The translations under genes and the position numbers were made by a program. A DNA stretch of 41,119 bases from Nitzschia sp. DOCU1 (Eukaryota; Bacillariophyta; Bacillariophyceae; Bacillariales; Bacillariaceae): the NCBI GenBank assembly GCA_951394045.1, contig CATOAN010000050.1, positions 1 to 41,119 of the forward strand, read 5' to 3'. Below, piece after piece: positions 897-40,586 of the stretch; the stretch's first letter is position 1, and each line of letters starts with the position of its first letter. The notes under the pieces were generated by a model. The model searched no databases. It was not told the DNA's origin and saw only the letters and a list, made by a program, of their open reading frames with translations.

Positions 897-933
897 CTAA
901 CAAAGGAAGCAAGGTCCCCAATTGCAGCAGCGC

Positions 934-1006
934 TTCCGCCACCGGGACTCGAACCCGGGTCGCTCGGGTGAGAGTCGAGTATCCTAACCAGCTAGACTAT
1001 AGCGGA
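934..1006 (-). tRNA. tRNA-Glu(CUC) B1 (type description)
   Basis: Minus-strand cloverleaf: acceptor TCCGCTA / TGGCGGA (T6-G67 wobble), D stem GTCT / GGAT with loop AGCTGGTTA, anticodon arm CTCGG-CTCTCAC-CCGAG (anticodon CUC, reads GAG), 4-nt variable loop CGAC, T arm CCGGG-TTCGAGT-CCCGG, discriminator A. No intron and no encoded CCA, as in eukaryotic nuclear genes. The A box (TAGTCTAGCTGG) and B box (GGTTCGAGTCC) are good. U11-A24, U13-G22, A46 and missing 47 match the glutamate identity set known from E. coli. CAA lies at -5 to -3. This copy departs from consensus by G31A, leaving an A31-C39 mismatch at the top of the anticodon stem, a change shared with B20 and B21. T5 terminator at 892-896. 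Confidence 0.88.
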
Positions 1007-1558
1007 ATTTGCGCTTGGACAAACTTTGCGTCCCAAGCAATCCAGCGCCGAGCGCGCCGAGCGCGCCGAGGTCCGTCGCTGGAATGCATGGCAACTTGTG
1101 CCGAAACAATGTGTTCGTGTGTGTCGGGGGTAATTGTTTTTTTGGAACCCCAGAAGAATTCCATATTTTGAACTTTTTGTTTTGTGTTCAGCAAAGTGTG
1201 CTTTACAACCTCCAATAACCATCGAATTAATCTGGTTGACTTATTCAATCGCGAGCGGTTCGCCTTGGGCGCCCCCATCCCCACCCTTCCGGCGCGCCTA
1301 CTCGCAATTAATTGACTTAAATAAATTAAATACAATAAAAAATAATAATTGAAAAGAATTTGAAGCAATTAAATTAATTCAGCAAAGCAGAAAATGGGTC
1401 CAACGCGTCAGCACACAAGCCATGTACATGAAGTAAATAAACGCACTCAGCAGTTTCCCCTTGAACCGCGCGCGTGTCCTCCGCGCAAGCAAAAAAACTA
1501 ACAAAACAAACAACACGAACACAACCAAAGGAACCAAGATCCCCCAGGGCAATAGCAC
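1007..1558. other. Spacer between B tRNA and next A pseudo-tRNA (type example, units 1-2)
   Basis: About 550 bp without a gene. It holds the 5' flank of the B tRNA with CAA at -5 to -3, the 9-bp repeat, a plus-strand T7 run (1136-1142) present in B but not A, the unit boundary at 1237, a C-tract, an AT-rich block, and the terminator-like A-rich block of the next A monomer. No protein gene or further RNA gene recognised; the same holds in the other units. Confidence 0.85.
1045..1071. repeat. Three copies of a 9-bp repeat in monomer B (type example)
   Basis: gcgccgagc, gcgccgagc, gcgccgagg in direct tandem, 39 bp upstream of the B tRNA 5' end. Monomer A has a decayed version (433-459). Nearly invariant in number across units except unit 33. 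Confidence 0.85.
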
Positions 1559-1631
1559 TTCCGCCGCCGTCTCTCGAGCCCGGGACGCTCGGGTGAGAGC
1601 CGAGTATCCTAACCAACTAGACTATAGCGGA
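1559..1631 (-). pseudogene. tRNA-Glu pseudogene A2
   Basis: Identical over 73 nt to the copy at 321-393. The downstream spacer has one extra C in the run near 1457-1460. Confidence 0.85.
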
Positions 1632-2171
1632 ATTTGCGCTTGGAAAAGGCCTTGCATCCCAAGCAATCCAGCGCCGAGCGCCCCGAGCGTGCAGAGGTCC
1701 GTCGCTGGAGTGCATGGCAGCTTGTGCCGAACAGTGATGTCGTGTGTGTCGGGGGGGATTCTTTTCTGGACCCCCAGACGAATTCCATGAATTGAACTTG
1801 TTGCTTTGTGCTCCGCAAAGTGTGCACTACTGTCTGGGAACCTCCAAGAATAATCGATTTAATCTGGTTAAGTTATTTAATTGCGAGCGGCTCGCTTGGG
1901 GCGCCCCTCCCCTCCCTTCCGGCACGCCTACTCACAATTAATTGAATTAAATAAATTGAATGAATTAATGGAAAATAAGTTAAATGCATCAAATTAATTC
2001 AATAAACCAGAAGACGGTCTAATACGTCGGCACATAACTCATTCAGCGTTTTCCCTTGAACCGCGCGCGTGTCCTCCGCGCAAGCAGAAACAACAAACAA
2101 GGGCAGCAATACACCAAACAAAATAAAACAAAAACTAACAAAGGAAGCAAGGTCCCCAATTGCAGCAGCGC

Positions 2172-2244
2172 TTCCGCCACCGGGACTCGAACCTGGGTCG
2201 CTCGGGTGAGAGCCGAGTATCCTAACCAGCTAGACTATAGCGGA
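2172..2244 (-). tRNA. tRNA-Glu(CUC) B2
   Basis: One change from consensus: G51A, giving an A51-C63 mismatch in the T stem (a CpG to TpG change on the plus strand). Shared with B9 and B31. May weaken the T arm. Confidence 0.85.
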
Positions 2245-2795
2245 ATTTGCGCTTGGACAAACTTTGCGTCCCAAGCAATCCAGCGCCGAGCGCGCCGAGC
2301 GCGCCGAGGTCCGTCGCTGGAATGCATGGCAACTTGTGCCGAAACAATGTGTTCGTGTGTGTCGGGGGTAATTGTTTTTTTGGAACCCCAGAAGAATTCC
2401 ATATTTTGAACTTTTTGTTTTGTGTTAAGCAAAGTGTGCTTTACAACCTCCAATAACCATCGAATTAATCTGGTTGACTTATTCAATCGCGAGCGGTTCG
2501 CCTTGGGCGCCCCCATCCCCACCCTTCCGGCGCGCCTACTCGCAATTAATTGACTTAAATAAATTAAATACAATAAAAAATAATAATTGAAAAGAATTTG
2601 AAGCAATTAAATTAATTCAGCAAAGCAGAAAATGGGTCCAACGCGTCAGCACACAAGCCATGTACATGAAGTAAATAAACGCACTCAACAGTTTCCCTTG
2701 AACCGCGCGCGTGTCCTCCGCGCAAGCAAAAAAACTAACAAAACAAACAACACGAACACAACCAAAGGAACCAAGATCCCCCAGGGCAATAGCAC

Positions 2796-2868
2796 TTCCG
2801 CCGCCGTCTCTCGAGCCCGGGACGCTCGGGTGAGAGCCGAGTATCCTAACCAACTAGACTATAGCGGA
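2796..2868 (-). pseudogene. tRNA-Glu pseudogene A3
   Basis: No change in the 73 nt. Its upstream third 9-mer reads gcgcagagg, partly B-like. Confidence 0.85.
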
Positions 2869-3408
2869 ATTTGCGCTTGGAAAAGGCCTTGCATCCCAAG
2901 CAATCCAGCGCCGAGCGCCCCGAGCGCGCAGAGGTCCGTCGCTGGAGTGCATGACAGCTTGTGCCGAACAGTGATGTCGTGTGCGTCGGGGGTGATTCTT
3001 TTCTGGACCCCCAGACGAATTCCATGAATTGAACTTGTTGCTTTGTGCTCCGCAAAGTGTGCACTACTGTCTGGGAACCTCCAAGAATAATCGATTTAAG
3101 CTGGTTAAGTTATTTAATTGCGAGCGGCTCGCTTGGGGCGCCCCTCCCCTCCCTTCCGGCACGCCTACTCACAATTAATTGAATTAAATAAATTGAATGA
3201 ATTAATGGAAAATAAGTTAAATGCGTCAAATTAATTCAATAAACCAGAAGACGGTCTAATACGTCGGCACATAACTCATTCAGCGTTTTCCCTTGAACCG
3301 CGCGCGTGTCCTCCGCGCAAGCAGAAACAACAACCAAGGGCAGCAATACACCAAACAAAATAAAACAAAAACTAACAAAGGAAGCAAGGTCCCCAATTGC
3401 AGCAGCGC

Positions 3409-3481
3409 TTCCGCCACCGGGACTCGAACCCGGGTCGCTCGGGTGAAAGCCGAGTATCCTAACCAGCTAGACTATAGCGGA
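3409..3481 (-). tRNA. tRNA-Glu(UUC) B3, anticodon variant
   Basis: One change from consensus: C34T in the anticodon, so the loop is CTTTCAC and the anticodon is UUC (reads GAA, still glutamate). All stems, the A box and the B box are intact, so this is a plausible working isoacceptor. The same change occurs in B13. Confidence 0.9.
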
Positions 3482-4032
3482 ATTTGCGCTTGGACAAACT
3501 TTGCGTCCCAAGCAATCCAGCGCCGAGCGCGCCGAGCGCGCCGAGGTCCGTCGCTGGAATGCATGGCAACTTGTGCCGAAACAATGTGTTCGTGTGTGTC
3601 GGGGGTAATTGTTTTTTTGGAACCCCAGAAGAATTCCATATTTTGAACTTTTTGCTTTGTGTTCAGCAAAGTGTGCTTTACAACCTCCAATAACCATCGA
3701 ATTAATCTGGTTGACTTATTCAATCGCGAGCGGTTCGCCTTGGGCGCCCCCATCCCCACCCTTCCGGCGCGCCTACTCGCAATTAATTGACTTAAATAAA
3801 TTAAATACAATAAAAAATAATAATTCAAAAACAAATGAAGCAATTAAATTAATGCAACAAAGCAGAAAATGGGTCCAACGCGTCAGCACACAAGCCATGT
3901 ACATGAAGTAAATAAACGCACTCAACAGTTTCCCTTGAACCGCGCGCGTGTCCTCCGCGCAAGCAAAAAAACTAACAAAACAAACAACACGAACACAACC
4001 AAAGGAACCAAGATCCCCCAGGGCAATAGCAC

Positions 4033-4105
4033 TTCCGCCGCCGTCTCTCGAGCCCGGGACGCTCGGGTGTGAGCCGAGTATCCTAACCAACTAGACTATA
4101 GCGGA
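4033..4105 (-). pseudogene. tRNA-Glu pseudogene A4 with anticodon CAC
   Basis: The usual A-type T-arm defects plus T35A, making the anticodon CAC (valine-type). One of only four A copies with any change. Confidence 0.83.
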
Positions 4106-4645
4106 ATTTGCGCTTGGAAAAGGCCTTGCATCCCAAGCAATCCAGCGCCGAGCGCCCCGAGCGTGCAGAGGTCCGTCGCTGGAGTGCATGGCAGCTTGTG
4201 CCGAACAGTGATGTCGTGTGTGTCGGGGGTGATTCTTTTCTGGACCCCCGGACGAATTCCATGAATTGAACTTGTTGCGCTGTGCTCCGCAAAGTGTGCA
4301 CTACTGTCTGGGAACCTCCAAGAATAATCGATTTAATCTGGTTAAGCTATTTAATTGCGAGCGGCTCGCTTGGGGCGCCCCTCCCCTCCCTTCCGGCACG
4401 CCTACTCACAATTAATTGAATTAAATAAATTGAATGAATTAATGGAAAATAAGTTAAATGCATCAAATTAATTCAATAAACCAGAAGACGGTCTAATACG
4501 TCGGCACATAACTCATTCAGCGGTTTCCCTTGAACCGCGCGCGTGTCCTCCGCGCAAGCAGAAACAACAAACAAGGGCAACAATACACCAAACAAAATAA
4601 AACAAAAAATAACAAAGGAAGCAAGGTCCCCAATTGCAGCAGCGC

Positions 4646-4718
4646 TTCCGCCACCGGGACTCGAACCCGGGTCGCTCGGGTGAGAGCCGAGTATCCTAAC
4701 CAGCTGGACCATAGCGGA
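4646..4718 (-). tRNA. tRNA-Glu(CUC) B4
   Basis: Two changes: A9G and T13C. The A box becomes TGGTCCAGCTGG, close to the eukaryotic consensus, and 13-22 becomes a Watson-Crick pair. The U13-G22 identity pair known from E. coli GluRS is lost. Fold otherwise intact. Confidence 0.9.
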
Positions 4719-5269
4719 ATTTGCGCTTGGACAAACTTTGCGTCCCAAGCAATCCAGCGCCGAGCGCGCCGAGCGCGCCGAGGTCCGTCGCTGGAATGCA
4801 TGGCAACTTGTGCCGAAACAATGTGTTCGTGTGTGTCGGGGGTAATTGTTTTTTTGGAACCCCAGAAGAATTCCATATTTTGAACTTTTTGCTTTGTGTT
4901 CAGCAAAGTGTGCTTTACAACCTCCAATAACCATCGAATTAATCTGGTTGACTTATTCAATCGCGAGCGGTTCGCCTTGGGCGCCCCCATCCCCACCCTT
5001 CCGGCGCGCCTACTCGCAATTAATTGACTTAAATACATTAAATACAATAAAAAATAATAATTGAACAGAATTTGAAGCAATTAAATTAATTCAACAAAGC
5101 AGAAAATGGGTCCAACGCGTCAGCACACAAGCCATGTACATAAAGTAAATAAACGCACTCAACAGTTTCCCTTGAACCGCGCGCGTGTCCTCCGCGCAGG
5201 CAAAGCAACTAACAAAACAAACAACACGAACGCAACCAAAGGAACCAAGATCCCCCAGGGCAATAGCAC

Positions 5270-5342
5270 TTCCGCCGCCGTCTCTCGAGCCCGGGACGCT
5301 CGGGTGAGAGCCGAGTATCCTAACCAACTGGACTATAGCGGA
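5270..5342 (-). pseudogene. tRNA-Glu pseudogene A5
   Basis: T13C in the D stem, the same base change as in B4, B8 and B33, on top of the A-type T-arm defects. Confidence 0.84.
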
Positions 5343-5882
5343 ATTTGCGCTTGGAAAAGGCCTTGCATCCCAAGCAATCCAGCGCCGAGCGCCCCGAGCG
5401 TGCAGAGGTCCGTCGCTGGAGTGCATGGCAGCTTGTGCCGAACAGTGATGTCGTGTGCGTCGGGGGTGATTCTTTTCTGGACCCCCAGACGAATTCCATG
5501 AATTGAACTTGTTGCTTTGTGCTCCGCAAAGTGTGCACTACTGTCTGGGAACCTCCAAGAATAATCGATTTAATCTGGTTAAGTTATTTAATTGCGAGCG
5601 GCTCGCTTGGGGCGCCCCTCCCCTCCCTTCCGGCACGCCTACTCACAATTAATTGAATTAAATGAATTGAATGAATTAATGGAAAATAAGTTAAATGCAT
5701 CAAATTAATTCAATAAACCAGAAGACGGTCTAATACGTCGGCACATAACTCATTCAGCGTTTTCCCTTGAACCGCGCGCGTGTCCTCCGCGCAAGCAGAA
5801 ACAACAAACAAGGGCAGCAATACACCAAACAAAATACAACAAAAACTAACAAAGGAAGCAAGGTCCCCAATTGCAGCAGCGC

Positions 5883-5955
5883 TTCCGCCACCGGGACTCG
5901 AACCCGGGTCGCTCAGGTGAGAGCCGAGTATCCTAACCAGCTAGACTATAGCGGA
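5883..5955 (-). tRNA. tRNA-Glu(CUC) B5
   Basis: One change: C40T, making a G30-T40 wobble in the anticodon stem. The neighbour B6 shares it, so the two are recent relatives. Confidence 0.9.
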
Positions 5956-6506
5956 ATTTGCGCTTGGACAAACTTTGCGTCCCAGGCAATCCAGCGCCGA
6001 GCGCGCCGAGCGCGCCGAGGTCCGTCGCTGGAATGCATGGCAACTTGTGCCGAAACAATGTGTTCGTGTGTGTCGGGGGTAATTGTTTTTTTGGAACCCC
6101 GGAAGAATTCCATATTTTGAACTTTTTGTTTTGTGTTCAGAAAAGTGTGCTTTACAACCTCCAATAACCACCGAATTAATCTGGTTGACTTATTCAATCG
6201 CGAGCGGTTCGCCTTGGGCGCCCCCATCCCCACCCTTCCGGCGCGCCTACTCGCAATTAATTGACTTAAATAAATTAAATACAATAAAAAATAATAATTG
6301 AAAAGAATTTGAAGCAATTAAATTAATTCAGCAAAGCAGAAAATGGGTCCAACGCGTCAGCACACAAGCCATGTACATGAAGTAAATAAACGCACTCAAC
6401 AGTTTCCCTTGAACCGCGCGCGTGTCCTCCGCGCAAGCAAAAAAACTAACAAAACAAACAACACGAACACAACCAAAGGAACCAAGATCCCCCAGGGCAA
6501 TCGCAC

Positions 6507-6579
6507 TTCCGCCGCCGTCTCTCGAGCCCGGGACGCTCGGGTGAGAGCCGAGTATCCTAACCAACTAGACTATAGCGGA
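6507..6579 (-). pseudogene. tRNA-Glu pseudogene A6
   Basis: No change in the 73 nt. Just downstream it has aatcgcac instead of aatagcac, shared with A12, A16 and A17. Confidence 0.85.
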
Positions 6580-7119
6580 ATTTGCGCTTGGAAAAGGCCT
6601 TGCATCCCAAGCAATCCAGCGCCGAGCGCCCCGAGCGTGCAGAGGTCCGTCGCTGGAGTGCATGGCAGCTTGTGCCGAACAGTGATGTCGTGTGTGTCGG
6701 GGGTGATTCTTTTCTGGACCCCCAGACGAATTCCATGAATTGAACTTGTTGCTTTGTGCTCCGCAAAGTGTGCACTACTGTCTGGGAACCTCCAAGAATA
6801 ATCGATTTAATCTGGTTAAGTTATTTAATTGCGAGCGGCTCGCTTGGGGCGCCCCTCCCCTCCCTTCCGGCACGCCTACTCACAATTAATTGAATTAAAT
6901 AAGTTGAATGAATTAATGGAAAATAAGTTAAATGCATCAAATTAATTCAATAAACCAGAAGACGGTCTAATACGTCGGCACATAACTCATTCAGCGTTTT
7001 CCCTTGAACCGCGCGCGTGTCCTCCGCGCAAGCAGAAACAACAAACAAGGGCAGCAATACACCAAACAAAATAAAACAAAAACTAACAAAGGAAGCAAGG
7101 TCCCCAATTGCAGCAGCGC

Positions 7120-7186
7120 TTCCGCCACCGGGACTCGAACCCGGGTCGCTCAGGTGATGTATCCTAACCAGCTAGACTATAGCGGA
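7120..7186 (-). pseudogene. tRNA-Glu pseudogene B6, anticodon arm deleted
   Basis: Only 67 nt. A net 6-nt loss removes most of the 5' anticodon stem and the first anticodon base, so no anticodon arm can form. A and B boxes remain, so it may still be transcribed. It also has C40T as in B5, showing that the deletion arose on a B5-like copy. Confidence 0.9.
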
Positions 7187-7737
7187 ATTTGCGCTTGGAC
7201 AAACTTTGCGTCCCAAGCAATCCAGCGCCGAGCGCGCCGAGCGCGCCGAGGTCCGTCGCTGGAATGCATGGCAACTTGTGCCGAAACAATGTGTTCGTGT
7301 GTGTCGGGGGTAATTGTTTTTTTGGAACCCCGGAAGAATTCCATATTTTGAACTTTTTGTTTTGTGTTCAGCAAAGTGTGCTTTACAACCTCCAATAACC
7401 ATCGAATTAATCTGGTTGACTTATTCAATCGCGAGCGGTTCGCCTTGGGCGCCCCCATCCCCACCCTTCCGGCGCGCCTACTCGCAATTAATTGACTTAA
7501 ATAAATTAAATACAATAAAAAATAATAATTGAAAAGAATTTGAAGCAATTAAATTAATTCAACAAAGCAGAAAATGGGTCCAACGCGTCAGCACACAAGC
7601 CATGTACATGAAGTAAATAAACGCACTCAACAGTTTCCCTTGAACCGCGCGCGTGTCCTCCGCGCAAGCAAAAAAACTAACAAAACAAACAACACGAACA
7701 CAACCAAATGAACCAAGATCCCCCAGGGCAATAGCAC

Positions 7738-7810
7738 TTCCGCCGCCGTCTCTCGAGCCCGGGACGCTCGGGTGAGAGCCGAGTATCCTAACCAACTAGA
7801 CTATAGCGGA
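7738..7810 (-). pseudogene. tRNA-Glu pseudogene A7
   Basis: No change in the 73 nt. One substitution immediately upstream (ggaagttgcg), and aaatgaacc downstream as in A23 and A32. Confidence 0.85.
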
Positions 7811-8350
7811 AGTTGCGCTTGGAAAAGGCCTTGCATCCCAAGCAATCCAGCGCCGAGCGCCCCGAGCGTGCAGAGGTCCGTCGCTGGAGTGCATGGCAGC
7901 TTGTGCCGAACAGTGATGTCGTGTGTTTCGGGGGTGATTCTTTTCTGGACCCCCAGACGAATTCCATGAATTGAACTTGTTGCTTTGTGCTCCGCAAAGT
8001 GTGCACTACTGTCTGGGAACCTCCAAGAATAATCGATTTAATCTGGTTAAGTTATTTAATTGCGAGCGGCTCGCTTGGGGCGCCCCTCCCCTCCCTTCCG
8101 GCACGCCTACTCACAATTAATTGAATCAAATAAATTGAATGAATTAATGGAAAATAAGTTAAATGCATCAAATTAATTCAATAAACCAGAAGACGGTCTA
8201 ATACGTCGGCACATAACTCATTCAGCGTTTTCCCTTGAACCGCGCGCGTGTCCTCCGCGCAAGCAGAAACAACAAACAAGGGCAGCAATACACCAAACAA
8301 AATAAAACAAAAACTAACAAAGGAAGCAAGGTCCACAATTGCAGCAGCGC

Positions 8351-8423
8351 TTCCGCCACCGGGACTCGAACCCGGGTCGCTCGGGTGAGAGCCGAGTATC
8401 CTAACCAGCTAGCCTATAGCGGA
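8351..8423 (-). tRNA. tRNA-Glu(CUC) B7, D-stem mismatch
   Basis: One change, a transversion T11G. It breaks the 11-24 pair in the D stem, which in E. coli is a glutamate identity pair, and alters the A box. Confidence 0.82.
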
Positions 8424-8974
8424 ATTTGCGCTTGGACAAACTTTGCGTCCCAAGCAATCCAGCGCCGAGCGCGCCGAGCGCGCCGAGGTCCGTCGCTGGA
8501 ATGCATGGCAACTTGTGCCGAAACAATGTGTTCGTGTGTGTCGGGGGTAATTGTTTTTTTGGAACCCCAGAAGAATTCCATATTTTGAACTTTTTGTTTT
8601 GTGTTCAGCAAAGTGTGCTTTACAACCTCCAATAACCATCGAATTAATCTGGTTGACTTATTCAATCGCGAGCGGTTCGCCTTGGGCGCCCCCATCCCCA
8701 CCCTTCCGGCGCGCCTACTCGCAATTAATTGACTTAAATAAATTAAATACAATAAAAAATAATAATTGAAAAGAATTTGAAGCAATTAAATTAATTCAAC
8801 AAAGCAGAAAATGGGTCCAACGCGTCAGCACACAAGCCATGTACATGAAGTAAATAAACGCACTCAACAGTTTCCCTTGAACCGCGCGCGTGTCCTCCGC
8901 GCAAGCAAAAAAACTAACAAAACAAACAACACGAACACAACCAAAGGAACCAAGATCCCCCAGGGCAATAGCAC

Positions 8975-9047
8975 TTCCGCCGCCGTCTCTCGAGCCCGGG
9001 ACGCTCGGGTGAGAGCCGAGTATCCTAACCAACTAGACTATAGCGGA
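8975..9047 (-). pseudogene. tRNA-Glu pseudogene A8
   Basis: No change in the 73 nt or near flanks. Confidence 0.85.
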
Positions 9048-9587
9048 ATTTGCGCTTGGAAAAGGCCTTGCATCCCAAGCAATCCAGCGCCGAGCGCCCC
9101 GAGCGTGCAGAGGTCCGTCGCTGGAGTGCATGGCAGCTTGTGCCGAACAGTGATGTCGTGTGCGTCGGGGGTGATTCTTTTCTGGACCCCCAGACGAATT
9201 CCATGAATTGAACTTGTTGCTTTGTGCTCCGCAAAGTGTGCACTACTGTCTGGGAACCTCCAAGAATAATCGATTTAATCTGGTTAAGTTATTTAATTGC
9301 GAGCGGCTCGCTTGGGGCGCCCCTCCCCTCCCTTCCGGCACGCCTACTCACAATTAATTGAATTAAATAAATTGAATGAATTAATGGAAAATAAGTTAAA
9401 TGCATCAAATTAATTCAATAAACCAGAAGACGGTCTAATACGTCGGCACATAACTCATTCAGCGTTTTCCCTTGAACCGCGCGCGTGTCCTCCGCGCAAG
9501 CAGAAACAACAAACAAGGGCAGCAATACACCAAACAAAATAAAACAAAAACTAACAAAGGAAGCAAGGTCCCCAATTGCAGCAGCGC

Positions 9588-9660
9588 TTCCGCCACCGGG
9601 ACTCGAACCCGGGTCGCTCGGGTGAGAGCCGAGTATCCTAACCAGCTGGACTATAGCGGA
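9588..9660 (-). tRNA. tRNA-Glu(CUC) B8
   Basis: One change: T13C, converting the 13-22 wobble to C-G. All stems are paired; one of the best folding copies. Confidence 0.92.
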
Positions 9661-10210
9661 ATTTGCGCTTGGACAAACTTTGCGTCCCAAGCAATCCAGC
9701 GCCGAGCGCGCCGAGCGCGCCGAGGTCCGTCGCTGGAATGCATGGCAACTTGTGCCGAAACAATGTGTTCGTGTGTGTCGGGGGTAATTGTTTTTTTGGA
9801 ACCCCAGAAGAATTCCATATTTTGAACTTTTTGTTTTGTGTTCAGCAAAGTGTGCTTTACAACCTCCAATAACCATCGAATTAATCTGGTTGACTTATTC
9901 AATCGCGAGCGGTTCGCCTTGGGCGCCCCCATCCCCACCCTTCCGGCGCGCCTACTCGCAATTAATTGACTTAAATAAATTAAATACAATAAACAATAAT
10001 AATTGAAAAGAATTTGAAGCAATTAAATTAATTCAACAAAGCAGAAAATGGGTCCAACGCGTCAGCACACAAGCCATGTACATGAAGTAAATAAACGCAC
10101 TCAACAGTTTCCCTTGAACCGCGCGCGTGTCCGCCGCGCAAGCAAAAAAACAACAAAACAAACAACACGAACACAACCAAAGGAACCAAGATCCCCCAGG
10201 GCAATAGCAC

Positions 10211-10283
10211 TTCCGCCGCCGTCTCTCGAGCCCGGGACGCTCGGGTGAGAGCCGAGTATCCTAACCAACTAGACTATAGCGGA
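10211..10283 (-). pseudogene. tRNA-Glu pseudogene A9
   Basis: No change in the 73 nt. The upstream flank reads ccttgcgtccc, which is B-like at the gcg. The downstream A-rich block has lost one base. Confidence 0.85.
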
Positions 10284-10823
10284 ATTTGCGCTTGGAAAAG
10301 GCCTTGCGTCCCAAGCAATCCAGCGCCGAGCGCCCCGAGCGTGCAGAGGTCCGTCGCTGGAGTGCATGGCAGCTTGTGCCGAACAGTGATGTCGTGTGTG
10401 TCGGGGGTGATTCTTTTCTGGACCCCCAGACGAATTCCATGCATTGAACTTGTTGCTTTGTGCTCCGCAAAGTGTGCACTACTGTCTGGGAACCTCCAAG
10501 AATAATCGATTTAATCTGGTTAAGTTATTTAATTGCGAGCGGCTCGCTTGGGGCGCCCCTCCCCTCCCTTCCGGCACGCCTACTCACAATTAATTGAATT
10601 AAATAAATTGAATGAATTAATGGAAAATAAATTAAATGCATCAAATTAATTCAATCAACCAGAAGACGGTCTAATACGTCGGCACATAACTCATTCAGCG
10701 TTTTCCCTTGAACCGCGCGCGTGTCCTCCGCGCAAGCAGAAACAACAAACAAGGGCAGCAATACACCAAGCAAAATAAAACAAAAACTAACAAAGGAAGC
10801 AAGGTCCCCAATTGCAGCAGCGC

Positions 10824-10896
10824 TTCCGCCACCGGGACTCGAACCTGGGTCGCTCGGGTGAGAGCCGAGTATCCTAACCAGCTAGACTATAGCGGA
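10824..10896 (-). tRNA. tRNA-Glu(CUC) B9
   Basis: G51A with an A51-C63 mismatch, as in B2 and B31. The upstream flank has cttgtac instead of cttggac, shared with B27. Confidence 0.85.
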
Positions 10897-11447: not shown

Positions 11448-11520
11448 TTCCGCCGCCGTCTCTCGAGCCCGGGACGCTCGGGTGAGAGCCGAGTATCCTA
11501 ACCAACTAGACTATAGCGGA
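11448..11520 (-). pseudogene. tRNA-Glu pseudogene A10
   Basis: No change in the 73 nt. The downstream hairpin loop has T to G, as in A9 and A25. Confidence 0.85.
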
Positions 11521-30005: not shown

Positions 30006-30078
30006 TTCCGCCGCCGTCTCTCGAGCCCGGGACGCTCGGGTGAGAGCCGAGTATCCTAACCAACTAGACTATAGCGGA
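30006..30078 (-). pseudogene. tRNA-Glu pseudogene A25
   Basis: No change in the 73 nt. Hairpin loop T to G downstream. Confidence 0.85.
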
Positions 30079-30618: not shown

Positions 30619-30691
30619 TTCCGCCACCGGGACTCGAACCCAGGTCGCTCGGGTGAGAGCCGAGTATCCTAACCAGCTAGACTATAGCGGA
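30619..30691 (-). tRNA. tRNA-Glu(CUC) B25
   Basis: C50T makes a T50-G64 wobble in the T stem; still pairs. The plus-strand T run upstream is 8 long, not 7. Confidence 0.9.
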
Positions 30692-31243
30692 ATTTGCGCT
30701 TGGACAAACTTTGCGTCCCAAGCAATCCAGCGCCGAGCGCGCCGAGCGCGCCGAGGTCCGTCGCTGGAATGCATGGCAACTTGTGCCGAAACAATGTGTT
30801 CGTGTGTGTCGGGGGTAATTGTTTTTTTTGGAACCCCAGAAGAATTCCATATTTTGAACTTTTTGTTTTGTGTTCAGCAAAGTGTGCTTTACAACCTCCA
30901 ATACCATCGAATTAATCTGGTTGACTTATTCAATCGCGAGCGGTTCGCCTTGGGCGCCCCCCATCCCCACCCTTCCGGCGCGCCTGCTCGCAATTAATTG
31001 ACTTAAATAAATTAAATACAATAAAAAATAATAATTGAAAAGACTTTGAAGCAATTAAATTAATTCAACAAAGCAGAAAATGGGTCCAACGCGTCAGCAC
31101 ACAAGCCATGTACATGAAGTAAATAAACGCACTCAGCAGTTTCCCTTGAACCGCGCGCGTGTCCTCCGCGCAAGCAAAAAAACTAACAAAACAAACAACA
31201 CGAACACAGCCAAAGGAACCAAGATCCCCCAGGGCAATAGCAC

Positions 31244-31316
31244 TTCCGCCGCCGTCTCTCGAGCCCGGGACGCTCGGGTGAGAGCCGAGTATCCTAACCA
31301 ACTAGACTATAGCGGA
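31244..31316 (-). pseudogene. tRNA-Glu pseudogene A26
   Basis: No change in the 73 nt. The upstream spacer has a small deletion near 31474 (catgtaact). Confidence 0.85.
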
Positions 31317-31852
31317 ATTTGCGCTTGGAAAAGGCCTTGCATCCCAAGCAATCCAGCGCCGAGCGCCCCGAGCGTGCAGAGGTCCGTCGCTGGAGTGCAT
31401 GGCAGCTTGTGCCGAACAGTGATGTCGTGTGCGTCGGGGGTGATTCTTTTCTGGACCCCCAGACGAATTCCATGTAACTTGTTGCTTTGTGCTCCGCAAA
31501 GTGTGCACTACTGTCTGGGAACCTCCAAGAATAATCGATTTAATCTGGTTAAGTTATTTAATTGCGAGCGGCTCGCTTGGGGCGCCCCTCCCCTCCCTTC
31601 CGGCACGCCTACTCACAATTAATTGAATTAAATAAATTGAATGAATTAATGGAAAATAAGTTAAATGCATCAAATTAATTCAATAAACCAGAAGACGGTC
31701 TAATACGTCGGCACATAACTCATTCAGCGTTTTCCCTTGAACCGCGCGCGTGTCCTCCGCGCAAGCAGAAACAACAAACAAGGGCAGCAATACACCAAAC
31801 AAAATAAAACAAAAACTAACAAAGGAAGCAAGGTCCCCAATTGCAGCAGCGC

Positions 31853-31925
31853 TTCCGCCACTGGGACTCGAACCCGGGTCGCTCGGGTGAGAGCCGAGTA
31901 TCCTAACCAGCTAGACTATAGCGGA
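31853..31925 (-). tRNA. tRNA-Glu(CUC) B26, T-stem mismatch
   Basis: G64A gives a C50-A64 mismatch. The leader reads cttggaaaaaac, which mixes the A-type ggaaaa with B sequence. Confidence 0.84.
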
Positions 31926-32477
31926 ATTTGCGCTTGGAAAAAACTTTGCGTCCCAAGCAATCCAGCGCCGAGCGCGCCGAGCGCGCCGAGGTCCGTCGCT
32001 GGAATGCATGGCAACTTGTGCCGAAACAATGTGTTCGTGTGTGTCGGGGGTAATTGTTTTTTTGGAACCCCAGAAGAATTCCATATTTTGAACTTTTTGT
32101 TTTGTGTTCAGCAAAGTGTGCTTTGCAACCTCCAATAACCATCGAATTAATCTGGTTGACCTATTCAATCGCGAGCGGTTCGCCTTGGGCGCCCCCATCC
32201 CCACCCTTCCGGCGCGCCTACTCGCAATTAATTGACTTAAATAAATTAAATACAATAAAAAATAATAATTGAAAAGAATTTGAAGCAATTAAATTAATTC
32301 AACAAAGCAGAAAATGGGTCCAACGCGTCAGCACACAAGCCATGTACATGAAGTAAATAAACGCACTCAACAGTTTCCCTTGAACCGCGCGCGTGTCCTC
32401 CGCGCAAGCAAAAAAACTAACAAAACAAACAACACGAACACAACCAAAGGAACCAAGATCCCCCAGGGCAATAGCAC

Positions 32478-32550
32478 TTCCGCCGCCGTCTCTCGAGCCC
32501 GGGACGCTCGGGTGAGAGCCGAGTATCCTAACCAACTAGACTATAGCGGA
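32478..32550 (-). pseudogene. tRNA-Glu pseudogene A27
   Basis: No change in the 73 nt. The leader reads ggctttgcgtcc, which is the B-type version, a probable conversion patch. Confidence 0.85.
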
Positions 32551-33090
32551 ATTTGCGCTTGGAAAAGGCTTTGCGTCCCAAGCAATCCAGCGCCGAGCGC
32601 CCCGAGCGTGCAGAGGTCCGTCGCTGGAGTGCATGGCAGCTTGTGCCGAACAGTGATGTCGTGTGCGTCGGGGGTGATTCTTTTCTGGACCCCCAGACGA
32701 ATTCCATGAATTGAACTTGTTGCTCTGTGCTCCGCAAAGTGTGCACTACTGTCTGGGAACCTCCAAGAATAATCGATTTAATCTGGTTAAGTTATTTAAT
32801 TGCGAGCGGCTCGCTTGGTGCGCCCCTCCCCTCCCTTCCGGCACGCCTACTCACAATTAATTGAATTAAATAAATTGAATGAATTAATGGAAAATAAGTT
32901 AAATGCATCAAATTAATTCAATAAACCAGAAGACGGTCTAATACGTCGGCACATAACTCATTCAGCGTTTTCCCTTGAACCGCGCGCGTGTCCTCCGCGC
33001 AAGCAGAAACAACAAACAAGGGCAGCAATACACCAAACAAAATAAAACAAAAGCTAACAAAGGAAGCAAGGTCCCCAATTGCAGCAGCGC

Positions 33091-33163
33091 TTCCGCCACC
33101 GGGACTCGAATCCGGGTCGCTCGGGTGAGAGCCGAGTATCCTAACCAGCTAGACTATAGCGGA
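33091..33163 (-). tRNA. tRNA-Glu(CUC) B27, B-box G53 changed
   Basis: G53A as in B17 and B33. Leader cttgtac as in B9. Confidence 0.8.
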
Positions 33164-33712
33164 ATTTGCGCTTGTACAAACTTTGCGTCCCAAGCAATCC
33201 AGCGCCGAGCGCGCCGAGCGCGCCGAGGTCCGTCGCTGGAATGCATGGCAACTTGTGCCGAAACAATGTGTTCGTGTGTGTCGGGGGTAATTGTTTTTTT
33301 GGAACCCCAGAAGAATTCCATATTTTGAACTTTTTGTTTTGTGTTCAGCAAAGTGTGCTTTACAACCTCCAATAACCATCGAATTAATCTGGTTGACTTA
33401 TTCAATCGCGAGCGGTTCGCCTTGGGCGCCCCCATCCCCACCCTTCCGGCGCGCCTACTCGCAATTAATTGACTTAAATAAATTAAATACAATAAAAATA
33501 ATAATTGAAAAGAATTTGAAGCAATTAAATTAATTCAACAAAGCAGAAAATGTGTCCAACGCGTCAGCACACAAGCCATGTACATGAAGTAAATAAACGC
33601 ACTCAACAGTTTCCCTTGAACCGCGCGCGTGTCCTCCGCGCAAGCAAAAAACTAACAAAACAAACAACACGAACACAACCAAAGGAACCAAGATCCCCCA
33701 GGGCAATAGCAC

Positions 33713-33785
33713 TTCCGCCGCCGTTTCTCGAGCCCGGGACGCTCGGGTGAGAGCCGAGTATCCTAACCAACTAGACTATAGCGGA
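33713..33785 (-). pseudogene. tRNA-Glu pseudogene A28
   Basis: One change, G61A, inside the already broken T arm. The downstream oligo-T run is 6 long. Confidence 0.84.
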
Positions 33786-34325
33786 ATTTGCGCTTGGAAA
33801 AGGCCTTGCATCCCAAGCAATCCAGCGCCGAGCGCCCCGAGCGTGCAGAGGTCCGTCGCTGGAGTGCATGGCAGCTTGTGCCGAACAGTGATGTCGTGTG
33901 TGTCGGGGGTGATTCTTTTCTGGACCCCCAGACGAATTCCATGAATTGAACTTGTTGCTTTGTGCTCCGCAAAGTGTGCACTACTGTCTGGGAACCTCCA
34001 AGAATAATCGATTTAATCTGGTTAAGTTATTTAATTGCGAGCGGCTCGCTTGGGGCGCCCCTCCCCTCCCTTCCGGCACGCCTACTCACAATTAATTGAA
34101 TTAAATAAATTGAATGAATTAATGGAAAATAAGTTAAATGCATCAAATTAATTCAATAAACCAGAAGACGGTCTAATACGTCGGCACATAACTCATTCAG
34201 CGTTTTCCCTTGAACCGCGCGCGTGTCCTCCGCGCAAGCAGAAACAACAAACAAGGGCAGCAATACACCAAACAAAATAAAACAAAAACTAACAAAGGAA
34301 GCAAGGTCCCCAATTGCAGCAGCGC

Positions 34326-34398
34326 TTCCGCCACCGGGACTCGAACCCGGGTCGCTCGGGTAAGAGCCGAGTATCCTAACCAGCTAGACTATAGCGGA
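34326..34398 (-). tRNA. tRNA B28: tRNA-Glu body with lysine anticodon CUU
   Basis: A single change, C36T, makes the loop CTCTTAC and the anticodon CUU, which reads AAG (lysine). Every stem and both promoter boxes are consensus, so it should be transcribed and fold normally. An automated caller may name it tRNA-Lys(CTT); the body is tRNA-Glu (U11-A24, U13-G22, A46, no 47). Whether it would be charged with Glu, Lys or nothing cannot be read from the sequence; U35 is unchanged. Confidence 0.88.
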
Positions 34399-34950
34399 AT
34401 TTGCGCTTGGACAAACTTTGCGTCCCAAGCAATCCAGCGCCGAGCGCGCCGAGCGCGCCGAGGTCCGTCGCTGGAATGCATGGCAACTTGTGCCGAAACA
34501 ATGTGTTCGTGTGTGTCGGGGGTAATTGTTTTTTTTGGAACCCCAGAAGAATTCCATATTTTGAACTTTTTGTTTTGTGTTCAGCAAAGTGTGCTTTACA
34601 ACCTCCAATAACCATCGAATTGATCTGGTTGACTTATTCAATCGCGAGCGGTTCGCCTTGGGCGCCCCCATCCCCACCCTTCCGGCGCGCCTACTCGCAA
34701 TTAATTGACTTAAATAAATTAAATACAATAAAAAATAATAATTGAAAAGAATTTGAAGCAATTAAATTAATTCAACAAAGCAGAAAATGGGTCCAACGCG
34801 TCAGCACACAAGCCATGTACATGAAGTAAATAAACGCACTCAACAGTTTCCCTTGAACCGCGCGCGTGTCCTCCGCGCAAGCAAAAAAACTAACAAAACA
34901 AACAACACGAACACAACCAAAGGAACCAAGATCCCCCAGGGCAATAGCAC

Positions 34951-35023
34951 TTCCGCCGCCGTCTCTCGAGCCCGGGACGCTCGGGTGAGAGCCGAGTATC
35001 CTAACCAACTAGACTATAGCGGA
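34951..35023 (-). pseudogene. tRNA-Glu pseudogene A29
   Basis: No change in the 73 nt. Confidence 0.85.
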
Positions 35024-35563
35024 ATTTGCGCTTGGAAAAGGCCTTGCATCCCAAGCAATCCAGCGCCGAGCGCCCCGAGCGTGCAGAGGTCCGTCGCTGG
35101 AGTGCATGGCAGCTTGTGCCGAACAGTGATGTCGTGTGTGTCGGGGGTGATTCTTTTCTGGACCCCCAGACGAATTCCATGAATTGAACTTGTTGCTTTG
35201 TGCTCCGCAAAGTGTGCACTACTGTCTGGGAACCTCCAAGAATAATCGATTTAATCTGGTTAAGTTATTTAATTGCGAGCGGCTCGCTTGGGGCGCCCCT
35301 CCCCTCCCTTCCGGCACGCCTACTCACAATTAATTGAATTAAATAAATTGAATGAATTCATGGAAAATAAGTTAAATGCATCAACTTAATTCAATAAACC
35401 AGAAGACGGTCTAATACGTCGGCACATAACTCATTCAGCGTTTTCCCTTGAACCGCGCGCGTGTCCTCCGCGCAAGCAGAAACAACAAACAAGGGCAGCA
35501 ATACACCAAACAAAATAAAACAAAAACTAACAAAGGAAGCAAGGTCCCCAATTGCAGCAGCGC

Positions 35564-35636
35564 TTCCGGCACCGGGACTCGAACCCGGGTCGCTCGGGTG
35601 AGAGCTGAGTATCCTAACCAGCTAGACTATAGCGGA
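35564..35636 (-). tRNA. tRNA-Glu(CUC) B29, two stem mismatches
   Basis: G68C (C5-C68 in the acceptor, as in B12) and G30A (A30-C40 in the anticodon stem). Probably poorly folded. Confidence 0.78.
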
Positions 35637-36186
35637 ATTTGCGCTTGGACAAACTTTGCGTCCCAAGCAATCCAGCGCCGAGCGCGCCGAGCGCGCCGAG
35701 GTCCGTCGCTGGAATGCATGGCAACTTGTGCCGAAACAATGTGTTCGTGTGTGTCGGGGGTAATTGTTTTTTTGGAACCCCAGAAGAATTCCATATTTTG
35801 AACTTTTTGTTTTGTGTTCAGCAAAGTGTGCTTTACAACCTCCAATAACCATCGAATTAATCTGGTTGACTTATTCAATCGCGAGCGGTTCGCCTTGGGC
35901 GCCCCCATCCCCACCCTTCCGGCGCGCCTACTCGCAATTAATTGACTTAAATAAATTAAATACAATAAAAAAAATAATTGAAAAGAATTTGAAGCAATTA
36001 AATTAATTCAACAAAGCAGAAAATGGGTCCAACGCGTCAGCACACAAGCCATGTACATGAAGTAAATAAACGCACTCAACAGTTTCCCTTGAACCGCGCG
36101 CGTGTCCTCCGCGCACGCAAAAAAACTAACAAAACAAACAACACGAACACAACCAAAGGAACCAAGATCCCCCAGGGCAATAGCAC

Positions 36187-36259
36187 TTCCGCCGCCGTCT
36201 CTCGAGCCCGGGACGCTCGGGTGAGAGCCGAGTATCCTAACCAACTAGACTATAGCGGA
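36187..36259 (-). pseudogene. tRNA-Glu pseudogene A30
   Basis: No change in the 73 nt. Confidence 0.85.
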
Positions 36260-36801
36260 ATTTGCGCTTGGAAAAGGCCTTGCATCCCAAGCAATCCAGC
36301 GCCGAGCGCCCCGAGCGTGCAGAGGTCCGTCGCTGGAGTGCATGGCAGCTTGTGCCGAACAGTGATGTCGTGTGCGTCGGGGGTGATTCTTTTCTGGACC
36401 CCCAGACGAATTCCATGAATTGAACTTGTTGCTTTGTGCTCCGCAAAGTGTGCACTACTGCCTGGGAACCTCCAAGAATAATCGATTTAATCTGGTTAAG
36501 TTATTTAATTGCGAGCGGCTCGCTTGGGGCGCCCCTCCCCTCCCTTCCGGCACGCCTACTCACAATTAATTGAATTAAATAAATTGAATGAATTAATGGA
36601 AAATAAGTTAAATGCATCAAATTAATTCAATAAACCAGAAGACGGTCTAATACGTCGGCACATAACTCATTCAGCGTTTTCCCTTGAACCGCGCGCGTGT
36701 CCTCCGCGCAAGCAGAAACAACAAACAAGGGCAGCAATACACCAAACAAAATAAAACAAAAAACTAACAAAGGAAGCAAGGTCCCCCAATTGCAGCAGCG
36801 C

Positions 36802-36874
36802 TTCCGCCATCGGGACTCGAACCCGGGTCGCTCGGGTGAGAGCCGAGTATCCTAACCAGCTAGACTATAGCGGA
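36802..36874 (-). tRNA. tRNA-Glu(CUC) B30, T-stem mismatch
   Basis: G65A gives a C49-A65 mismatch at the base of the T stem. One extra C just downstream (gtcccccaatt), also in B32. Confidence 0.84.
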
Positions 36875-37424
36875 ATTTGCGCTTGGACAAACTTTGCGTC
36901 CCAAGCAATCCAGCGCCGAGCGCGCCGAGCGCGCCGAGGTCCGTCGCTGGAATGCATGGCAACTTGTGCCGAAACAATGTGTTCGTGTGTGTCGGGGGTA
37001 ATTGTTTTTTTGGAACCCCAGAAGAATTCCATATTTTGAACTTTTTGTTTTGTGTTCAGAAACGTGTGCTTTACAACCTCCAGTAACCATCGAATTAATC
37101 TGGTTGACTTATTCAATCGCGAGCGGTTCGCCTTGGGCGCCCCCATCCCCACCCTTCCGGCGCGCCTACTCGCAATTAATTGACTTAAATAAATTAAATA
37201 CAATAAGAAATAATAATTGAAAAGAATTTGAAGCAATTAAATTAATTCAACAAAGCAGAAAATGGGTCCAACGCGTCAGCACACAAGCCATGTACATGAA
37301 GTAAATAAACGCACTCAGCAGTTTCCCTTGAACCGCGCGCGTGTCCTCCGCGCAAGCAAAAAACTAACAAAACAAACAACACGAACACAACCAAAGGAAC
37401 CAAGATCCCCCAGGGCAATAGCAC

Positions 37425-37497
37425 TTCCGCCGCCGTCTCTCGAGCCCGGGACGCTCGGGTGAGAGCCGAGTATCCTAACCAACTAGACTATAGCGGA
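37425..37497 (-). pseudogene. tRNA-Glu pseudogene A31
   Basis: No change in the 73 nt. The downstream oligo-T run is 6 long. Confidence 0.85.
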
Positions 37498-38037
37498 ATT
37501 TGCGCTTGGAAAAGGCCTTGCATCCCAAGCAATCCAGCGCCGAGCGCCCCGAGCGTGCAGAGGTCCGTCGCTGGAGTGCATGGCAGCTTGTGCCGAACAG
37601 TGATGTCGTGTGTGTCGGGGGTGATTCTTTTCTGGACCCCCAGACGAATTCCATGAATTGAACTTGTTGCTTTGTGCTCCGCAAAGTGTGCACTACTGTC
37701 TGGGAACCTCCAAGAATAATCGATTTAATCTGGTTAAGTTATTTAATTGCGAGCGGCTCGCTTGGGGCGCCCCTCCCCTCCCTTCCGGCACGCCTACTCA
37801 CAATTAATTGAATTAAATAAATTGAATGAATTAATGGAAAATAAGTTAAATGCATCAAATTAATTCAATAAACCAGAAGACGGTCTAATACGTCGGCACA
37901 TAACTCATTCAGCGTTTTCCCTTGAACCGCGCGCGTGTCCTCCGCGCAAGCAGAAACAACAAACAAGGGCAGCAATACACCAAACAAAATAAAACAAAAA
38001 CTAACAAAGGAAGCAGGGTCCCCAATTGCAGCAGCGC

Positions 38038-38110
38038 TTCCGCCACCGGGACTCGAACCTGGGTCGCTCGGGTGAGAGCCGAGTATCCTAACCAGCTAGA
38101 CTATAGCGGA
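38038..38110 (-). tRNA. tRNA-Glu(CUC) B31
   Basis: G51A with an A51-C63 mismatch, as in B2 and B9. Confidence 0.85.
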
Positions 38111-38661
38111 ATTTGCGCTTGGACAAACTTTGCGTCCCAAGCAATCCAGCGCCGAGCGCGCCGAGCGCGCCGAGGTCCGTCGCTGGAATGCATGGCAACT
38201 TGTGCCGAAACAATGTGTTCGTGTGTGTCGGGGGTAATTGTTTTTTTGGAACCCCAGAAGAATTCCATATTTTGAACTTTTTGTTTTGTGTTCAGCAAAG
38301 TGTGCTTTACAACCTCCAATAACCATCGAATTAATCTGGTTGACTTATTCAATCGCGAGCGGTTCGCCTTGGGCGCCCCCATCCCCACCCTTCCGGCGCG
38401 CCTACTCGCAATTAATTGACTTAAATAAATTAAATACAATAAAAAATAATAATTGAAAAGAATTTGAAGCAATTAAATTAATTCAACAAAGCAGAAAATG
38501 GGTCCAACGCGTCAGCACACAAGCCATGTACATGAAGTAAATAAACGCACTCAACAGTTTCCCTTGAACCGCGCGCGTGTCCTCCGCGCAAGCAAAAAAA
38601 CTAACAAAACAAACAACACGAACACAACCAAATGAACCAAGATCCCCCAGGGCAATAGCAC

Positions 38662-38734
38662 TTCCGCCGCCGTCTCTCGAGCCCGGGACGCTCGGGTGAG
38701 AGCCGAGTATCCTAACCAACTAGACTATAGCGGA
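38662..38734 (-). pseudogene. tRNA-Glu pseudogene A32
   Basis: No change in the 73 nt. The upstream spacer has one extra TG in a short GT run (near 38845-38852), and downstream is the aaatgaacc variant. Confidence 0.85.
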
Positions 38735-39277
38735 ATTTGCGCTTGGAAAAGGCCTTGCATCCCAAGCAATCCAGCGCCGAGCGCCCCGAGCGTGCAGAGG
38801 TCCGTCGCTGGAGTGCATGGCAGCTTGTGCCGAACAGTGATGTCGTGTGTGTGTCGGGGGTGATTCTTTTCTGGACCCCCAGACGAATTCCATGAATTGA
38901 ACTTGTTGCTTTGTGCTCCGCAAAGTGTGCACTACTGTCTGGGAACCTCCAAGAATAATCGATTTAATCTGGTTAAGTTATTTAATTGCGAGCGGCTCGC
39001 TTGGGGCGCCCCTCCCCTCCCTTCCGGCACGCCTACTCACAATTAATTGAATTAAATAAATTGAATGAATTAATGGAAAATAAGTTAAATGCAACAAATT
39101 AATTCAATAAACCAGAAGACGGTCTAATACGTCGGCACATAACTCATTCAGCGTTTTCCCTTGAACCGCGCGCGTGTCCTCCGCGCAAGCAGAAACAACA
39201 AACAAGGGCAGCAATACACCAAACAAAATAAAACAAAAACTAACAAAGGAAGCAAGGTCCCCCAATTGCAGCAGCGC

Positions 39278-39350
39278 TTCCGCCACCGGGACTCGAACCC
39301 GGGTCGCTCGGGTGAGAGCCAAGTATCCTAACCAGCTAGACTATAGCGGA
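39278..39350 (-). tRNA. tRNA-Glu(CUC) B32
   Basis: C29T makes a T29-G41 wobble; all stems still pair. The plus-strand T run upstream is 6 long. Confidence 0.9.
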
Positions 39351-39900
39351 ATTTGCGCTTGGACAAACTTTGCGTCCCAAGCAATCCAGCGCCGAGCGCG
39401 CCGAGCGCGCCGAGGTCCGTCGCTGGAATGCATGGCAACTTGTGCCGAAACAATGTGTTCGTGTGTGTCGGGGGTAATTGTTTTTTGGAACCCCAGAAGA
39501 ATTCCATATTTTGAACTTTTTGTTTTGTGTTCAGCAAAGTGTGCTTTACAACCTCCAATAACCATCGAATTAATCTGGTTGACTTATTCAATCGCGAGCG
39601 GTTCGCCTTGGGCGCCCCCATCCCCACCCTTCCGGCGCGCCTACTCGCAATTAATTGACTTAAATAAATTAAATACAATAAAAAATAATAATTGAAAAGA
39701 ATTTGAAGCAATTAAATTAATTCAACAAAGCAGAAAATGGGTCCAACGCGTCAGCACACAAGCCATGTACATGAAGTAAATAAACGCACTCAACAGTTTC
39801 CCTTGAACCGCGCGCGTGTCCTCCGCGCAAGCAAAAACACTAACAAAACAAACAACACGAACACAACCAAAGGAACCAAGATCCCCCAGGGCAATAGCAC

Positions 39901-39973
39901 TTCCGCCGCCGTCTCTCGAGCCCGGGACGCTCGGGTGAGAGCCGAGTATCCTAACCAACTCGACTATAGCGGA
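39901..39973 (-). pseudogene. tRNA-Glu pseudogene A33
   Basis: One change, T13G in the D stem, beside the A-type T-arm defects. Confidence 0.84.
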
Positions 39974-40513
39974 ATTTGCGCTTGGAAAAGGCCTTGCATC
40001 CCAAGCAATCCAGCGCCGAGCGCCCCGAGCGTGCAGAGGTCCGTCGCTGGAGTGCATGGCAGCTTGTGCCGAACAGTGATGTCGTGTGCGTCGGGGGTGA
40101 TTCTTTTCTGGACCCCCAGACGAATTCCATGAATTGAACTTGTTGCGTTGTGCTCCGCAAAGTGTGCACTACTGTCTGGGAACCTCCAAGAATAATCGAT
40201 TTAATCTGGTTAAGGTATTTAATTGCGAGCGGCTCGCTTGGGGCGCCCCTCCCCTCCCTTCCGGCACGCCTACTCACAATTAATTGAATTAAATAAATTG
40301 AATGAATTAATGGAAAATAAGTTAAATGCATCAAATTAATTCAATAAACCAGAAGACGGTCTAATACGTCGGCACATAACTCATTCAGCGTTTTCCTTGA
40401 ACCGCGCGCGTGTCCCTCCGCGCAAGCAGAAACAACAAACAAGGGCAGCAATACACCAAACAAAATAAAACAAAAACTAACAAAGGAAGCAAGGTCCCCA
40501 ATTGCAGCAGCGC

Positions 40514-40586
40514 TTCCGCCACCGGGACTCGAATCCGGGTCGCTCGGGTGAGAGCCGAGTATCCTAACCAGCTGGACTATAGCGGA
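40514..40586 (-). tRNA. tRNA-Glu(CUC) B33, B-box G53 changed
   Basis: G53A (lost G53-C61, B box altered) and T13C. Lies beside the expanded 9-bp repeat. Confidence 0.8.

Follow-up and report, generated by a model that had tools for sequence, protein, structure and literature searches.

Why should almost every copy of an amplified transfer RNA (tRNA) gene carry one change, when broken copies of the same gene, interspersed with it, carry hardly any? The question is raised by a tandem array of tRNA-Glu(CUC) genes in the diatom Nitzschia sp. DOCU1 (GenBank assembly GCA_951394045.1, contig CATOAN010000050.1). The window, that is, the whole stretch of DNA that was analysed, is 41,119 bp long and is the entire contig (C61 in an assembly of 52.08 Mb and 63 contigs that was also searched). 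It is occupied end to end by 33 head-to-tail dimer units of 1231–1240 bp, each of which comprises one broken tRNA-Glu (A) and one tRNA-Glu(CUC) gene (B), with all 33 bodies of each class on the minus strand. Both termini of the contig fall within a dimer unit, thus the real array either extends further or has lost its flanks in the contig; it comprises at least 33 copies in tandem.

The two classes differ in structure. B folds into a full cloverleaf with anticodon CTC, which identifies it as tRNA-Glu(CUC), and its consensus scores 62.0 bits with the Rfam tRNA model (RF00005; gathering score 29), placing the class within the tRNA family with 32 of the 33 bodies at 49.5–63.6 bits. A retains the 5′ part and the anticodon arm (anticodon CTC); seven positions separate it from B, most of them in the T arm and six in the last 45 nt of the tRNA; its T-stem pairs and B box are broken, its consensus scores 32.0 bits, and 32/33 A bodies lie at 30.8–33.2 bits. 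The B copy with a deletion (U06) and the A copy at 39901 have no RF00005 listing. The 32 tRNA genes called by ARAGORN in the window (29 Glu CTC, two Glu TTC, and one CTT read as Lys) are all B copies; no A copy was called.

Over 73 nt × 33 copies, the B bodies carry 39 aligned substitutions, one of which (in U06) is part of a 6-nt deletion event, leaving 38 substitutions and one deletion. Zero, one, two, and three substitutions are found in 1, 26, 5, and 1 copies, respectively, or zero, one, and two events in 1, 27, and 5 copies when the three-base run of U11 is taken as one event; this recount agrees with an earlier note on the same DNA, which had reported 32 of 33 B bodies as changed, 26 of them exactly once. 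The A bodies hold four substitutions and no indel (29 copies with none, four with one), and the comparison of A with B (Fisher P 2.7e-8) bears out the claim that the excess lies on the class that appears active. The exact probability of at most one empty B copy is 2.7e-7 (39 substitutions, 33 copies), 2.9e-8 with the three-base run as a single event (37 events), and 9.3e-8 when one copy is dropped from each of three adjacent pairs sharing a hit (33 events, 30 copies); for events at G/C sites alone it is 1.4e-6, or 1.3e-5 with the adjacent sharers dropped. The variance/mean ratio in B is 0.15–0.24. In five successive control bins of 37 spacer substitutions each, which take in 185 of the 200 spacer substitutions (the final 15 being left over), the ratio is 1.21, 0.77, 1.10, 1.21, and 1.83 with 9–16 empty units, i.e., Poisson-like or over-dispersed, so that the under-dispersion claimed earlier for B withstands a per-copy check. 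A plain Poisson model has a log-likelihood of −36.2. With one hit in nearly every copy plus a small Poisson background, the value rises to −18.8 when the background is fitted (0.15 per copy) and to −18.9 when it is taken from the A bodies; one hit plus the A-rate background predicts 0.9, 28.5, and 3.4 copies with zero, one, and two events.

Neutral decay of redundant copies, with under-dispersion arising by chance, would suit the random severity of the hits described below, but it is excluded by the dispersion and by the rate, since the B total of 39 compares with 11.4 expected at spacer rates (P 1.3e-10), and it is very improbable. The A total of four lies below the same expectation over all sites (P 0.011); at G/C sites A (1/1485) is near the spacer rate (45/16698; P 0.18), which puts the A bodies not far from the background of the array. 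The near-invariance that the earlier note had stressed in A holds as a count, and on the G/C-site comparison special constraint on A was set aside.

An artefact of assembly, base-calling, or polishing is suggested by the near-identity of the repeats, by the position of both contig ends inside the array, and by an unusual spectrum in the spacer, rich in A>C and T>G changes. However, the A bodies, of equal length and similar composition, are almost clean, with four differences and no indel in 33 × 73 bases, and errors would not single out B nor spread one per copy. Moreover, neighbouring units have variants in common, as in real tandem exchange: 9 of 27 spacer doubletons are common to neighbours (1.6 expected; P 1.9e-5), as are two of five B-body doubletons, and a third neighbour pair shares a B hit also present in one distant copy. 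Polishing error, named earlier as a possible cause of the B differences, thus looks unlikely, and an artefact of any of these kinds is considered improbable. The shared variants indicate that neighbouring units exchange sequence, and the B hits appear to be about as old as the spacer variants rather than a last-minute burst. Neighbour-shared variants are much commoner at unit positions 970–1212 than elsewhere, a sign of local exchange. Minor spacer variants, of which 62/200 are A>C or T>G, are dense in the A/T-rich unit positions 1151–1200.

The excess in B is confined to one kind of change. G/C-to-A/T substitutions per G/C site and copy amount to 0.0189 in B, 0.0023 in the spacer, and 0.0007 in A (B versus spacer, odds ratio 8.4, P 4e-14), and at A/T sites B (9/924) resembles the spacer (155/19305; P 0.57). 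All 30 G/C-site changes in B fall in the last 45 nt (32 G/C sites), where they are spread over 41 nt, and on the coding strand 15 G>A and 11 C>T show hardly any strand bias. Outside the body, the same rate is 0.0091 in the 40-bp leader of B and 0.0030 in that of A, 0.0058 in the 40-bp trailer of A, and 0.0045 in the 40-bp trailer of B, compared with 0.0265 in the last 45 nt of the B body. The 13 bp directly upstream of the B gene (unit positions 838–850) hold seven substitutions in five copies, three of them in unit 23; the excess does sit on the body, as stated earlier, but its confinement there is not absolute. Among the 200 spacer substitutions, 149 are A/T-to-G/C and 38 G/C-to-A/T.

These features bear on transcription-associated mutation, for which the principal study of elevated mutation in tRNA genes is that of Thornlow and others from 2018. 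Transcription of B by RNA polymerase III (Pol III) would raise G/C-to-A/T change in the body and near the start, and A, lacking a working B box, would be untranscribed and stay at background. This would explain why the excess is confined to the class with an intact B box, the G/C-to-A/T spectrum, the raised leader, and the random severity of the hits. It predicts Poisson or over-dispersed counts, however, and leaves one hit per copy, the low rate in the transcribed trailer, the lack of G/C hits in the first 28 nt, and the near-absence of strand bias without explanation. Other Pol III genes of the genome show no such spread: the eight nuclear 5S rRNA genes above 100 bits among the best 47 of 2488 candidates (on C2, C4, C5, C13, and C16) are dispersed and form no array, and seven of the eight have an identical bit score, which argues that Pol III genes are not generally scarred here, purifying selection on 5S genes being a confounder of this comparison. 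As the sole cause, transcription-associated mutation is unlikely. Two other mutational processes were rejected. Repeat-induced point mutation (RIP) conflicts with the spacer spectrum given above and with a single G/C-to-A/T change in the A bodies, and decay of methylated CpG with only 13 of 25 independent B events at CpG (16 of 45 sites; P 0.096, a weak enrichment) and three G/C-to-A/T changes at spacer CpG (131 sites × 33).

By structure, 19 of the 39 B substitutions break a pair, six turn G-C into G-U, three turn the T-G pair 13-22 into C-G, and 11 are unpaired; substitutions alter the anticodon in three copies, twice to TTC and once to CTT. T11, T13, A46, and the anticodon may be identity sites of glutamyl-tRNA synthetase, by analogy with the E. 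coli enzyme, an assignment weakened by the T13 change in two A copies. On a wide functional list, which was compiled after the hits had been seen and includes E. coli identity sites, two of 29 independent hit copies carry non-functional hits only, against 5.3 expected (P 0.078). Damage among the B hits is thus at best weakly enriched and certainly not depleted. Purifying selection as the force shaping B was set aside, since damage is not depleted and almost no copy is unmutated. In 25 of the 32 hit copies the A and B boxes are free of hits, so that the brake on further hits is not a loss of transcription. A reverse-transcribed tRNA was also set aside as donor of the changes, the hits lying off known modified bases.

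The explanation tentatively preferred, plausible but short of probable, is that selection caused the one-hit rule: after amplification it would have attenuated every surplus B copy a single time. Surplus tRNA-Glu(CUC) would be mildly costly, and mutations that weakened or changed a B copy while it was intact would be favoured; once hit, a copy would escape that pressure and drift at the background rate of the array, as do the A copies, which were dead before. The one consensus B copy left would match the single tRNA-Glu(UUC) gene found elsewhere, and the changes would be taken from a mutation supply biased to G/C-to-A/T, possibly raised by transcription of B. Selection on tRNA function gives the best fit to the counts, in keeping with the earlier proposal of selection for one hit per copy, and would account for the scarcity of unhit copies, for the absence of further hits once a copy has been struck outside the promoter boxes, and for the low rate in the trailer.

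Several observations weigh against selection, which leaves the severity, placement, and spectrum of the hits unexplained. By strict criteria, 18 of the 33 independent substitutions count as damaging, against 17.7 expected when the same base changes are placed at random, or 20.2 when the null is confined to the last 45 nt; the change in cloverleaf folding free energy is 1.63 against 1.47 for random changes (P 0.26), and some changes (G45A, C38T, and C34T) look mild. The first 28 nt (13 G/C sites) escaped all 30 G/C-site changes, though the A box and both stems there matter, and a run of 13 unhit G/C sites has a P of 0.004 (25 independent events). The seven leader substitutions fall in copies that already have a body hit. 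T13 is changed in three B and two A copies (unit positions 824 in B and 211 in A), possibly a class-independent hot spot. Furthermore, 28 of the 39 B substitutions are G/C-to-A/T, compared with spacer singletons of which 79 are at A/T and 28 at G/C sites; the two spectra differ, thus B and the spacer do not draw on one mutation supply. Deletion of copies by unequal exchange would also seem an easier route to lower dosage. The earlier argument that confinement to the body by itself favours selection does not hold, since the absence of damage enrichment, the cold first 28 nt, and an excess of G/C-to-A/T changes only point to a mutational component that acts locally. A combination may be most likely, in which the mutation supply is raised in B and selection heeds only whether a copy is still intact.

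The placement of the hits is also compatible with a G/C-to-A/T process that senses sequence and limits itself: it would act on any copy whose last 45 nt are identical to the tRNA, and one mismatch would end its action. RNA- or homology-guided methylation or deamination, or targeting by a nuclease or integrase, would be candidate agents. Such a process would yield one hit per copy, the observed spectrum, random severity, and G/C hits in the last 45 nt only, and A would be immune, since six of its seven differences lie there. Against it, no enzyme or guide was identified, the hits extend over 41 nt, a length at which recognition could survive one mismatch, CpG sites are weakly enriched, and a RIP-like action would hit the spacers too, whose CpG sites are nearly unchanged; it is judged quite unlikely. 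The bolder version is a long shot: here the cell would detect identical tRNA-Glu(CUC) genes present in surplus and inactivate each of them with exactly one change, through a G/C-to-A/T process that requires a perfect match over the last 45 nt and is switched off by its own product, with A immune through its mismatches.

The tRNA-Glu genes elsewhere, with which the earlier note called for a comparison, were sought across the assembly. A motif from D arm to anticodon, allowing three mismatches at most, has 65 occurrences, every one in the array contig; the one tRNA body of the 66 that it misses is the deleted B copy, U06. When the tRNA served as a DNA query, the best 40 of 66 candidates lay in the array contig, and so did the best 40 of 67 for a spacer query. 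The B-box pattern occurs at 14 places outside the array contig, seven of which were examined with ARAGORN (two Asp, one Val, one Glu(UUC), and three without a tRNA). By these motif, DNA, and B-box searches, the last with seven of 14 places examined, the 52-Mb assembly yielded no tRNA-Glu(CUC) gene beyond those of the array. One tRNA-Glu(UUC) gene was found (C1:1668053-1668125), whose only strong match is itself, followed by two B copies at 77%. Both codons are in use, with 184 GAG and 303 GAA counted over 26 mechanically derived frames of 200 codons or more (16 loci), some of them perhaps spurious. A Glu-like anticodon-arm pattern gave four places, against 14 for the reversed control, and a pattern scan of viral contigs gave no match. 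The other nuclear tRNA genes found are not in arrays of this kind. The array itself is nuclear. Contig C63 (125,321 bp) is the plastid: frames in its first 10 kb are presumably dnaB, rpl1, petB, petD, and chlI, named by gene family, and the petB frame was confirmed as cytochrome b6 by comparison with solved structures. Among the named entries in a list of at least 120 matches, the plastid DnaB is 76% identical to that of Kryptoperidinium foliaceum, a dinoflagellate that harbours a diatom endosymbiont, and 75% identical to that of Nitzschia anatoliensis; one further entry is labelled as a cyanobacterial metagenome-assembled genome. Together with the plastid gene content, these matches point to a diatom. 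Contig C62, with many tRNA genes, is probably the mitochondrion, and contig C1 starts with CCCTAA telomere repeats.

The positions of the array and of its tRNA bodies are collected in Table 1. A 9-bp repeat, GCGCCGAGC, lies upstream of most B genes in 2.9 copies (1045–1070 and equivalents in most units); in the last unit it is present in 3.9 copies (40625–40659).

Table 1. The tandem array and its tRNA bodies, with positions in the window and the change carried by each B body.
Feature	Position	Strand	Remarks
Tandem array of A+B dimer units	1..41119	.	~1237 bp each, fills contig
33 A bodies, broken tRNA-Glu, 73 nt each	321..39973	-	starts 1–11: 321, 1559, 2796, 4033, 5270, 6507, 7738, 8975, 10211, 11448, 12685
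A bodies, starts 12–22		-	13922, 15159, 16396, 17633, 18870, 20106, 21343, 22580, 23819, 25056, 26291
A bodies, starts 23–33		-	27531, 28769, 30006, 31244, 32478, 33713, 34951, 36187, 37425, 38662, 39901
B body U01	934..1006	-	G31A
B body U02	2172..2244	-	G51A
B body U03	3409..3481	-	C34T, anticodon to TTC
B body U04	4646..4718	-	A9G + T13C
B body U05	5883..5955	-	C40T
B body U06	7120..7186	-	C40T + net 6-nt deletion through anticodon
B body U07	8351..8423	-	T11G
B body U08	9588..9660	-	T13C
B body U09	10824..10896	-	G51A
B body U10	12061..12133	-	sole copy identical to consensus
B body U11	13298..13370	-	G67T G68T C69T, three-base run in acceptor stem, one event
B body U12	14535..14607	-	G68C
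B body U13	15772..15844	-	T20C + C34T (anticodon to TTC)
B body U14	17009..17081	-	G45A
B body U15	18246..18318	-	C69T
B body U16	19483..19555	-	A46T
B body U17	20719..20791	-	G53A
B body U18	21956..22028	-	G70A
B body U19	23194..23266	-	T33C
B body U20	24432..24504	-	G31A
B body U21	25669..25741	-	G31A
B body U22	26905..26977	-	G57A
B body U23	28144..28216	-	C38T
B body U24	29382..29454	-	C38T
B body U25	30619..30691	-	C50T
B body U26	31853..31925	-	G64A
B body U27	33091..33163	-	G53A
B body U28	34326..34398	-	C36T, anticodon to CTT
B body U29	35564..35636	-	G30A + G68C
B body U30	36802..36874	-	G65A
B body U31	38038..38110	-	G51A
B body U32	39278..39350	-	C29T
B body U33	40514..40586	-	T13C + G53A

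A near-uniform count of one change per copy is a rare quantitative signature, which sets copies struck a single time and thereafter left alone apart from the outcome of ordinary mutation. If selection is responsible, the array is a natural experiment on the cost of extra tRNA genes and on the effect of a single change; if a mutator is, it would represent a new way to tame gene repeats. No description of a one-change-per-copy pattern was found among the papers listed by the literature searches, subscription papers lying mostly outside that search. Among known systems, the tRNA arrays of Entamoeba likewise place protist tRNA genes in tandem, but in 25 array types with short tandem repeats in the spacers, compared with the one array type seen in the diatom (PMC2652664, in the part consulted). 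The human tandem repeat at 1q23.3 also consists of tandem tRNA units, variable in copy number, but its units are 7.3 kb long with five tRNA genes and a proposed boundary role, and the one-hit pattern was not seen in the sections consulted (PMC4041453). The tRNA-Ser/Tyr (SYY) cluster of Arabidopsis resembles the diatom array in its paired repeat, major copies, minor variants, and tRNA-like pseudogenes; that cluster is described as largely silent and has dispersed intact genes beside it, whereas no tRNA-Glu(CUC) gene was found outside the array in the diatom (PMC12308677, in the part consulted). The closest parallel among the systems consulted is the Arabidopsis thaliana tRNA-Cys cluster (chromosome 5), where, according to the sections consulted, tandem one-tRNA units adjoin a well-conserved pseudogene and many copies have mispairs in the acceptor, T, and anticodon stems, some being silent (PMC10701932). 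Tandem units, stem mispairs, and a conserved pseudogene are common to both, and the diatom array belongs to this type of cluster with degenerate copies, having 33 units, pair-breaking changes in about half of its B substitutions (19/39), and A as the conserved broken copy. The Arabidopsis units, however, are few and of 0.4 kb, the pseudogene precedes the cluster, whereas A alternates with B, and the sections on variability and expression give no per-copy hit count (PMC10701932). Tandem tRNA clusters with damaged copies are already known; the near-uniform single change per copy is the rare part.

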